Positions 10,710-52,627 of a stretch of DNA of 64,000 bases are shown here, in pieces; position 1 is the stretch's first letter; every line of letters starts with the position of its first letter. The position numbers and the translations under genes were made by a program. The notes below the pieces were generated by a model that worked only from the letters and a program-made list of their open reading frames with translations, was not told the origin of the DNA and ran no database searches. The stretch lies in NCBI GenBank assembly GCA_902569735.1, contig CACFVE010000004.1, forward strand, positions 1 to 64,000. The letters run 5' to 3'. The DNA comes from an uncultured Pelagibacteraceae bacterium (lineage in GTDB: Bacteria > Pseudomonadota > Alphaproteobacteria > Pelagibacterales > Pelagibacteraceae).

Positions 10710-10805
10710 CACCACTTTCCGCAAAATAACAAGTTTTTGCGGTGCTCTTAATTTTAAGAGTGTCGACACTAGTCAGCGAAGGTTCGCCCACTAGTGCGAT
10801 TGGTG
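10710..10805 (+). ncRNA. Structured leader upstream of ffh (consistent with the Pelagibacter ffh leader RNA motif)
   Basis: Three consecutive hairpins (10719-10742, 10745-10760, 10767-10796) enclosed by a possible CACCA/TGGTG stem (10710-10714/10801-10805); locally GC-rich. Confidence 0.7.
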
Positions 10806-50029: not shown

Positions 50030-50797
50030 TTAAAAACTATCTTTTAAATCGCGTAATTTAGAGAAAATTTCTTGCTCTGATGCGTTATTTAAATTTACGG
50101 CATCTTTAATTGACGGCTCATTGCATCGTAGAAATATATTAGTTTTTTTTTCTTCTCCAATAGAGATTGGAACAGTAGGGGAGTTAGAATTTATTTTTAA
50201 ATTAATCCAATTAATCTTTTTTTTTAAAAATTCATTATTTTGGTCATATTCTAGACAAAACTCTAGATTTTTTTTTGTATATTCATGTCCACAATATATT
50301 TTAGTATCTATTGGTAAATTTTTTAATTTATTTAAAGATCTAAACATTTGTTCATTTGTTCCTTCAAAAACTTTACCACAACCTAAAGAGAAGAGAGTGT
50401 CTCCGGTAAAAACTATTTTTTCATCTTTGAGATAAAATGCTATGTGACCTTTTGTGTGACCTGGAATAAAAATGACTTCAAAAGAAATATTTCCCATTTT
50501 AAAATTTTGTTTTTCTTTTAATGCTATATCAATGCCAGGTATACGATCTTTATCTAAATCGAATCCTAAAACTTTAGATTTATATTTTTCTTTAAGTTTT
50601 TCGTTACCACCAACATGATCCAAATGATGATGCGTATTTAAAATATAATCTAATTTATTGTGTTTTTCATTTATTATTTTATCACAAGTAGTAAAATCAG
50701 ATGGATCAATTATTGCAACTGTATCACTGCTTCTATCATAAAGAAGATAACTGTAGTTATCATTCAAACAAGGAATAATTTCTACGTTTAATTTCAT
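50030..50797 (-). CDS. gloB: Hydroxyacylglutathione hydrolase (glyoxalase II)
   Basis: 255 aa; NTHHHLDHVGG metallo-beta-lactamase motif, FTGDTLFSLGCGKVFEG, CGHEYT. Confidence 0.93.
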   Translation of the reverse strand: MKLNVEIIPCLNDNYSYLLYDRSSDTVAIIDPSDFTTCDKIINEKHNKLDYILNTHHHLDHVGGNEKLKEKYKSKVLGFDLDKDRIPGIDIALKEKQNFKMGNISFEVIFIPGHTKGHIAFYLKDEKIVFTGDTLFSLGCGKVFEGTNEQMFRSLNKLKNLPIDTKIYCGHEYTKKNLEFCLEYDQNNEFLKKKINWINLKINSNSPTVPISIGEEKKTNIFLRCNEPSIKDAVNLNNASEQEIFSKLRDLKDSF

Positions 50798-51387
50798 CCT
50801 ATTAAAAATATCCCTAGCTTAGAAAAAAAATTTTTTATCTCGAGGTTATTTTTCTTAATTTCTGAGGTGTTATCTTTATTAACCCCTACAGCTTTTTTAA
50901 TCTTAATATTTTTTTCTAAACAAAAATGAAAAAAATCCTTTATTGTGCACATATGAAGATTAGGAGTATTATACCAAGAGTTTGGTAAAGTTTTTGTAAC
51001 TGGCATTTTTCCAAAAAATAATAAGCTAGTTCTCACCTTCCAATATCCAAAATTAGGTATTGATATAATCACTGATTTTCCAATTTTTAACAAATCTTTT
51101 AAAACTTTTTCGGGATTATAAAATGCCTGGAGTGTCTGACTTAATATTACAAAATCAAAGGATTGATTTGGAAATTGATGAAGTTCTGTTTCTGCATTTC
51201 CCTCAATGACTGGGAGACCTTTATAAATACATTTTGTAACATTTTCTTTTTTAAGTTCTAAACCTCGAGCTTCTATATTTTTCTCTTTAATTAAATGACT
51301 CATTAAAGAACCATCACCACAACCAACATCTAGAACTGTTACATTCTTTGGTAATAAATCTGCAATTACTTTAAATTCTTTTTTCAT
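50794..51387 (-). CDS. metW: Methionine biosynthesis protein MetW
   Basis: 197 aa; VLDVGCGDGSLMSHL, FDFVILSQTLQAFYNPEKVL; downstream of metX. Confidence 0.92.
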   Translation of the reverse strand: MKKEFKVIADLLPKNVTVLDVGCGDGSLMSHLIKEKNIEARGLELKKENVTKCIYKGLPVIEGNAETELHQFPNQSFDFVILSQTLQAFYNPEKVLKDLLKIGKSVIISIPNFGYWKVRTSLLFFGKMPVTKTLPNSWYNTPNLHMCTIKDFFHFCLEKNIKIKKAVGVNKDNTSEIKKNNLEIKNFFSKLGIFLIG

Positions 51388-52510
51388 TTTTAAATTTTAT
51401 GTGCATTGAGTCTATGAATCCTTTTAAAGTTTTAAGAAACTCGGGTTCATTTACTAAAAAAGAGTCGTGACCTTTGTCAGTTTTAATCTCAGAGAAAGAG
51501 ACGTCCGCCCCTGAAGCATTAAGAGCAATTACTATATCTTTGTTTTCTTTTGTTGTGTACAGCCAATCTGAAGAGAAAGAAATAACTAAAAATTTTATTT
51601 TTTGATTTTTAAAAGCCTCAATAAGACCACCTTTAAAATGTTTTGATAAATCAAAATAATCCATTGCCCTAGTAATATACAAGACAGAATTTGCATCAAA
51701 TCTTTCTACGAAAGCACTACCCTGATGTCTTAAATAACTTTCAACTTGAAAATCTGCATTAAAACTAAATTCATAATCTGCTTTCTCTTGAAGTTTTCTT
51801 CCAAATTTTTCTTGCATTCCTTTCTCAGACAAATAACTAATATGACCTACCATTCTTGCTACAGCTAATCCATTTTTAGGTTGCACATTTTTTGATAAAT
51901 ATTTTCCTTTGTCCCATACAGGATCCGCCATGATAGCTTGTCGAGCAAGTTCGTTAAGAGCTATATTTTGTGCACTATGACTTGTACTGCAAGCAATAGG
52001 AATTGCTGAAAATGTTTTATTTGGGAATATTGTACAGAACTCAAGTAGTTGCATTCCACCCATAGATCCTCCTGTAGCACAAAGAAGTTTTTTGATACCT
52101 AGATGATCAAGAAGAGTTTCTTGTGCTTTAACCATATCTCTTATGGTTATAACTGGAAAATTTAATCCATACGGTTCATTTGTTTTTTTATCTATCTCTT
52201 TAGGACCCCATGAACCCATGCATCCTCCAATAACGTTTGCACATATTACAAAATACTTATTTGTATCAATTGCTTTATCTGGACCTACGGCTGTAATCCA
52301 CCATCCTTCTTTTTTTGTTACAGGATTTATTTCGCTAACAAACTGATCTCCAGTAAGTGCATGGAAAACTAATATAGCATTATCTTTTGACTCGTTTAGT
52401 TTTCCGTAAGTTTCATATGCTAAAGGAAAATCTTTAATAGTTTGCCCACAATCTAATTTAAGTGGCTTAGAGACATTAATGGTCTTAATATTTTTAATTT
52501 TATAGTTCAT
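51371..52510 (-). CDS. metX: Homoserine O-acetyltransferase
   Basis: 379 aa; NAILVFHALTGDQFV, GGSMGGMQLLEF, DKGHDSFLVNEPEF. Confidence 0.95.
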   Translation of the reverse strand: MNYKIKNIKTINVSKPLKLDCGQTIKDFPLAYETYGKLNESKDNAILVFHALTGDQFVSEINPVTKKEGWWITAVGPDKAIDTNKYFVICANVIGGCMGSWGPKEIDKKTNEPYGLNFPVITIRDMVKAQETLLDHLGIKKLLCATGGSMGGMQLLEFCTIFPNKTFSAIPIACSTSHSAQNIALNELARQAIMADPVWDKGKYLSKNVQPKNGLAVARMVGHISYLSEKGMQEKFGRKLQEKADYEFSFNADFQVESYLRHQGSAFVERFDANSVLYITRAMDYFDLSKHFKGGLIEAFKNQKIKFLVISFSSDWLYTTKENKDIVIALNASGADVSFSEIKTDKGHDSFLVNEPEFLKTLKGFIDSMHIKFKNEKRI

Positions 52511-52512
52511 TC

Positions 52513-52538
52513 AAAAAAAAAGCCCAGCTAAACTGGGC
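52513..52538 (-). terminator. Intrinsic terminator between SAM-II aptamer and metX start
   Basis: Minus strand GCCCAG-TTTAG-CTGGGC followed by TTTTTTTTT; ends 2 nt before the metX start codon. Confidence 0.88.
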
Positions 52539-52541
52539 GAA

Positions 52542-52594
52542 CCCCTTTTTAGCTAAATTTATTATGCGCTTGCAATATGGTTAAATCAGCGCTT
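52542..52594 (-). promoter_or_regulatory. SAM-II riboswitch aptamer upstream of metX
   Basis: Minus strand AAGCGCTGATTTAACCATATTGCAAGCGCATAATAAATTTAGCTAAAAAGGGG matches the recalled SAM-II consensus (GCGCU GAUUUAACC..AUUGCA AGCGC..AAAUxxAGCUAAAAAGG); upstream of metX as expected. Confidence 0.95.
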
Positions 52595-52621
52595 CTAATG
52601 TTTACTAAATCATCTTAAACT

Positions 52622-52627
52622 TGTCAA
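52622..52627 (-). promoter_or_regulatory. Candidate -35 (TTGACA) of the metX promoter
   Basis: Minus strand TTGACA; a 17-nt spacer gives a weak -10 TAAACA (52604-52599) and predicts TSS near the first aptamer base. Confidence 0.4.

Follow-up and report, generated by a model that had tools for sequence, protein, structure and literature searches.

A SAM-II riboswitch very probably controls metX, together with metW, by transcription attenuation in a SAR11 bacterium. The sequence parts of the switch, their conservation, and their predicted stability and order of folding were established here from a stretch of 64,000 nucleotides (the window), whose source lineage is SAR11. Read along the minus strand, the aptamer is followed by GGGG, UUC, the hairpin GCCCAG-UUUAG-CUGGGC, U9, GA, and AUG (window positions 52594 to 52513, then the metX start). 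A preliminary description of this DNA had placed a SAM-II aptamer and this terminator with its U9 tract ahead of metX, and all of these coordinates were found to be correct to the base. The features of the locus, all on the minus strand, are as follows.

52622 to 52627, minus strand: -35 hexamer TTGACA, perfect consensus
52599 to 52604, minus strand: probable -10 hexamer TAAACA after a 17-nt spacer, from its position and its conservation as TAAACA, TAAATA, or TATACA
52542 to 52594, minus strand: SAM-II aptamer, with P1 at 52592-52588/52570-52566, P2a at 52580-52579/52545-52544, and 3′ strand AGCUAAAAAGGGG
52548 to 52554, minus strand: AGCUAAA, aptamer 3′ strand and antiterminator 5′ strand (antiterminator positions 2 to 6 pair in 99 to 100% of 116 leaders)
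52542 to 52545, minus strand: GGGG, 3′ strand of P2a with SAM bound and antiterminator partner of CCC at 52537-52535 (GGG/CCC paired in 82 to 99% of 116 leaders)
52522 to 52538, minus strand: intrinsic terminator hairpin GCCCAG-UUUAG-CUGGGC, the sole terminator detected in the region
52526 to 52532, minus strand: UUUAGCU, terminator loop and beginning of the 3′ arm, and antiterminator 3′ strand, from loop conservation
52513 to 52521, minus strand: U9 tract (T9 downstream of the hairpin)
51371 to 52510, minus strand: metX, homoserine O-acyltransferase, the regulated gene (NCBIfam NF001209 MetX, 505.7 bits; cutoff, 331)
50794 to 51387, minus strand: metW, overlapping the metX 3′ end (NCBIfam TIGR02081 metW, 233.1 bits; cutoff, 189.5; open reading frame [ORF] coordinates)

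A SAM-II aptamer precedes metX

The P1 stem, L1 GAUUU, UUGC, the GCUAAA core, and the P2a pairing are all present in the window copy, and the closing pair of P1 covaries between U-A and C-G among related leaders. The aptamer shares 46 of 52 letters with a 52-nt laboratory SAM-II RNA (sequence printed in PMC8494917). The six differences fall at positions 1, 2, 17, 30, 32, and 39 of the 52-mer, leaving unchanged U11 and U21, which contact the SAM sulfonium in the structure 2QWY (PMC8525861). With U11, U21, and the GCUAAA strand shared with the 2QWY RNA, the window copy would be expected to bind SAM.

The aptamer was not among the hits of an Rfam scan at the gathering threshold. With the threshold lifted, the covariance search proposed in the preliminary description returned SAM-II (RF00521, SAM_alpha) as the best family in the region, with a sub-threshold score of 20.8 bits against a cutoff of 36 (E value of 0.012 for the region). 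The match spans window positions 52528 to 52602 on the minus strand, and the aptamer is the highest RF00521 match in the whole genome assembly. At the gathering cutoff, automatic annotation therefore overlooks SAM-II in this SAR11 genome. Elsewhere in the window, the Rfam scan reported an ffh sRNA motif (RF01793) at positions 10752 to 10804 of the plus strand, at 44.2 bits and above its cutoff.

The genes downstream of the aptamer belong to the methionine/SAM pathway, MetX and then MetW by NCBIfam, and metW is probably cotranscribed with metX; the divergent gene upstream of the leader is hisC. TTGACA lies 29 to 33 nt ahead of P1 in 116 of 116 distinct leaders, a position that points to a transcription start near P1, and a promoter just upstream of P1 was described for the SAM-II class by Corbino et al. 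(PMC1273637). The -10 hexamer is a weak match to TATAAT and was missed by a consensus promoter scan.

The terminator is conserved among SAR11 metX leaders

In a family-level search of 147 genomes, the leader turned up in many members of the genus and of its sister genera. A GTDB pattern scan yielded 76 named contigs, all from Pelagibacteraceae/Pelagibacterales, and the terminator was present in every one of the 75 that were cleanly readable (one contig holds an N). Comparisons were made with 116 distinct SAR11 metX leaders that share the terminator layout; GCUAAA was part of the search pattern and hence was required in the leaders collected. On the evidence of these alignments, the layout is not due to chance, the same arrangement being kept across 116 distinct related leaders.

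The intrinsic terminator lies between the aptamer and the ORF, its arms being GCCCAG (52538-52533) and CTGGGC (52527-52522) and its loop TTTAG (52532-52528). One terminator was counted in the region, compared with 0.2 ± 0.5 in shuffled sequence. Stem pairing survives base changes across the 116 leaders, the basal pair being G-C, G-U, or A-U and the fifth pair A-U or G-U. The terminator pattern matched 115 leaders, whose U tracts are 9 T's long in 101 cases, 8 in 13, and 7 in 1. Loop positions 1 and 2 vary (TT, TC, TA, or CT), and the 3′ end of the loop is UAG in 115 of 116 leaders. Nothing within the terminator itself requires this UAG; UAGCU complements AGCUA, which is invariant in the aptamer strand.

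The aptamer 3′ strand is predicted to pair with the terminator in an alternative fold

An antiterminator exclusive with the terminator, in which AGCUAAA (52554-52548) pairs with UUUAGCU (52532-52526), had been read from the window earlier; we found it to be present and conserved, with the aptamer 3′ strand able to pair with the terminator in all 116 leaders. It is drawn from aptamer nucleotides and is exclusive with the bound fold. Eleven of 13 fixed-register positions pair in 88 of the 116 leaders, and the others have 9, 10, or 12 pairs, with 9 as the minimum. The GGG/CCC extension proposed for this helix also pairs, but it belongs to the inner hairpin of the antiterminator, where a 2-by-2 internal loop separates it from the 7-bp AGCUAAA/UUUAGCU helix. 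Median duplex energy across the 116 leaders was -13.7 kcal/mol, versus -4.1 kcal/mol for shuffled terminators, and each leader's duplex outdid at least 95% of its own shuffles. Sliding the register by 1 to 3 positions lowered paired cells from 0.78 to between 0.13 and 0.53. Counting against the antiterminator reading, each of the loop variants TC, TA, and CT costs one AGCUAAA/UUUAGCU pair.

The predicted median minimum free energy (MFE) was -14.2 kcal/mol for the aptamer tail plus terminator and -10.8 kcal/mol for the terminator alone (Vienna, which models neither the pseudoknot nor SAM). L030 and L068 are among the leaders whose predicted tail-plus-terminator MFE structure is the terminator rather than the antiterminator. 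In growing-chain folds of the window leader, GGG/CCC appeared once the chain reached 62 nt, the AGCUAAA helix followed at 68 to 70 nt, and both preceded a complete CUGGGC. This earlier appearance, together with the greater predicted stability, would favor the antiterminator when SAM is not bound.

Covariation of the antiterminator appears between paralogues and across the class

Covariation was examined in both stems. The terminator keeps its pairing through base changes, whereas the antiterminator core showed no covariation within SAR11, where exchanging the 3′ letters among sequences kept the paired fraction at 0.783. The 5′ strand of the antiterminator is the SAM-binding strand and cannot vary, and both strands are nearly invariant, so the test within SAR11 is uninformative. 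Support for the pairing comes instead from the terminator loop, which is conserved, from the control with shuffled targets, and from joint changes on both sides between paralogues and in the class at large. A lack of AGCTAAA/TTTAGCT covariation across homologues, which the preliminary description had taken as grounds for abandoning the pairing, is thus literally the case within SAR11, but both sides change together between paralogues (bhmT) and across Alphaproteobacteria.

Six of seven bhmT SAM-II leaders, including L097, combine the tail GCUAAAGCG with the terminator loop CGCUUUAG(C/U); L091 is imperfect. A further 55 SAM-II elements from Alphaproteobacteria have strong terminators; in these, the tail (most often GGUCGG) is matched by the 5′ arm of the terminator (CCGACC and variants). 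The elements' own duplexes scored -13.2, compared with -9.0 for shuffled ones, and a run of at least 5 Watson-Crick pairs occurred in 74%, versus 28% after shuffling. The cross-locus median of -12.5 is near the own median, since most tails share GGUCGG. Both antiterminator sides have changed together in L212 (GACCGGG/CCCGGUC) and L217 (GGCCGG/CCGGCC). Judged from these alignments, the SAR11 antiterminator is a short form of the class-wide one, supplemented by loop pairing. In two distant alphaproteobacterial SAM-II leaders, L193 and L204, the terminator loops GGCUAU(AU) complement AUAGC on the 5′ side of GCUAAA, which amounts to the SAR11 loop strategy in another register.

Proposed mechanism and alternative readings

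According to the attenuation model, the transcript would begin near P1. At low SAM, the aptamer 3′ strand (AGCUAAA through GGG) would be free, and newly transcribed GCCC and UUUAGCU would pair with it, GGG/CCC first and AGCUAAA/UUUAGCU next; the terminator would then be unable to close, and polymerase would continue into metX. With SAM bound, AGCUAAAAAGG would be kept in the P2 pseudoknot, GCCCAG/CUGGGC would close, and transcription would stop in the U9 tract to give a product of roughly 80 nt. We infer from the parts described above that termination depends on SAM.

The metX ATG begins at 52510, 2 nt past the U tract, and the read-through message has no Shine-Dalgarno (SD) sequence near the metX AUG. 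This had been noted before; the observation holds, and SD-like motifs precede only 5 of the 58 ORFs of at least 150 amino acids in the window (ORF starts were taken roughly, as the first ATG), so a missing SD is ordinary for this genome. P2a does not hold an SD at the correct spacing before the start, as direct occlusion would require: 31 nt separate the end of GGGG from the metX ATG downstream, and in the window GGGG is not followed by an AUG. A tail AUG in frame with metX across the terminator and U9 occurs in L020, L148, L163, L175, and L176 and in 47 leaders of the genus, the same layout as AUG1/AUG2 of Sinorhizobium meliloti metA. We considered whether translation truly begins at this AUG as a conserved upstream start and rejected the idea as a general rule, as 18 of 65 close leaders are without it and 7 of those 18 have a stop there.

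Dual control like that of S. meliloti metA is an unlikely alternative to attenuation. It would make the terminator largely SAM independent and have the SAM-bound pseudoknot hide the G-rich tail, acting as a distant SD across the hairpin, so that translation is also switched. The order of parts is that of S. meliloti metA, where a start codon lying 74 nt further on, past a terminator, requires the SD in the aptamer (PMC9373788), and in 47 of 65 close leaders the G-rich tail is immediately followed by an AUG that shares the metX frame. The window copy, however, has no such AUG, and it is missing from 18 of the 65 leaders, 7 of which carry an in-frame UAG in its place. SD-like motifs, as the window ORFs indicate, are scarce in this genome, and GGG is paired rather than free in the SAM-free antiterminator fold. 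An aptamer-driven antiterminator is also evident here, unlike in S. meliloti metA.

The description of the near-identical laboratory RNA as translational (PMC6061858, PMC10907184, PMC12434664) speaks for a purely translational switch working by direct occlusion, with the hairpin as a fortuitous terminator-like element. We regard this as very improbable, given that 116 distinct leaders retain the terminator and a U7 to U9 tract, their base changes leaving the pairing intact, that the start codon comes only after the U tract, and that SD-like motifs occur near the start in only 2 of 116 leaders. Still less probable is a constitutive terminator that serves to produce a small RNA containing SAM-II, with merely incidental complementarity in the antiterminator: S. 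meliloti does make the riboswitch-containing sRNAs RZ and RA (PMC9373788), but in metX, bhmT, and other leaders from Alphaproteobacteria, terminator loops or arms that complement the aptamer strand are found again and again, with differing sequences.

Natural context of the model SAM-II RNA

PDB entry 2QWY is the 5′ UTR of metX, taken from a Sargasso Sea sequence (PMC8525861). The laboratory 52-mer, SAM-II-WT-RS (52 nt; PMC8494917), is printed there without the 2QWY label, and its link to 2QWY rests on sequence identity and on the matching residue numbers U11, U21, A19, A41, and A49 (PMC8525861). Among 169 genomes of this genus, 2 contain the 52-mer without a single change. In both, the sequence runs on as GATGCCCAGTTTAGCTGGGC-T9-GG-ATG, with the same terminator immediately after. 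Both also have an AUG in the metX frame behind the G-rich tail, and its presence may be the reason that a ribosome binding site was proposed for the model RNA.

It is likely that the best-studied SAM-II RNA (Sargasso Sea metX, 2QWY), cited as translational, is in its natural SAR11 setting an attenuator cut just before its terminator and that its 3′ "Shine-Dalgarno" strand is the antiterminator strand. If so, apo-state studies on the 52-mer were carried out without the natural competitor strand. SAM-II folding, nuclear magnetic resonance (NMR), fluorescence resonance energy transfer (FRET), and simulation work leans heavily on this RNA, usually presented as a translation switch; conclusions on SD exposure in the apo state would need rereading if this reading is confirmed. 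Extending the model RNA by about 30 nt would give a construct on which the natural switch could be tested.

Comparison with known systems

The preliminary description had contrasted the window leader with SAM-II riboswitches as often discussed, that of occluders of ribosome binding. That contrast runs the wrong way round, as surveys call most SAM-II riboswitches transcriptional (PMC1273637, PMC2258182, PMC6061858). SAM-II elements with intrinsic terminators are known in Alphaproteobacteria (Corbino 2005, PMC1273637; Barrick and Breaker 2007, PMC2258182), and the window leader shares with them P1 and the pseudoknot, a promoter just 5′ of P1, a terminator between P2 and the ORF, and a methionine gene downstream. 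The SAR11 copy differs in being A+T rich and compact, with the class-wide GGUCGG/CCGACC pairing cut to GGG/CCC plus AGCUAAA/UUUAGCU in the terminator loop. A Gluconobacter SAM-II has also been suggested to form terminator and antiterminator folds (PMC5756330).

Two possible other platforms were seen beside metX SAM-II aptamers. In a sister genus of the same family (g4), the aptamer is kept and the terminator hairpin is absent, with U8-CUCACAAUUC instead. All 33 distinct g4 leaders have a U tract (8 U's in 26 of them) and then CUC[A/U/C]CAAUUC, complementary to the aptamer-internal GAAUUGCGAG; variation in this element is confined to the mismatched position, and the sequence beyond diverges (examples are L278 [G063:C1:790546-790613], L267-L296, and L093-L098). 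This looks like a different expression platform; the complementary element is transcribed after the U tract. In L086 (G023:C20:28632-28694), from another genus, the metX SAM-II leader reads GGG-AAACUAUAC-GAUAA-GUAUAGUUU, with the ATG a few nucleotides past the hairpin and no real U tract, and is possibly another platform type.

The bhmT leader with tandem SAM-II and SAM-V aptamers (PMC9481103, PMC11508383) likewise places a terminator with a U tract after SAM-II, and the loop of that terminator complements the aptamer strand. It differs in its terminator (ACCACCG-CUUUAGC-CGGUGGU) and in the second aptamer, SAM-V, reported downstream, whereas the metX leader is single. S. meliloti metA (PMC9373788) shares the aptamer, the G-rich tail, and a terminator ahead of the start codon used, but a SAM-II-driven antiterminator was not predictable there and is evident in the window leader. 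The metX SAM-II of "Candidatus Pelagibacter ubique" HTCC1062 is known (PMC2704228) and is the same in gene and aptamer class, and an effect of SAM-II on metX transcription has already been stated (PMC5069961). The Sargasso Sea 2QWY metX RNA, from which the window copy differs at the six positions listed above, is called translational in the literature (PMC8525861, PMC6061858, PMC10907184). SAM-II elements with terminators, that of Pelagibacter metX among them, are thus already known, and the window element adds one more attenuator in an abundant marine lineage; what a specialist may not anticipate is the setting in which the model RNA occurs naturally.
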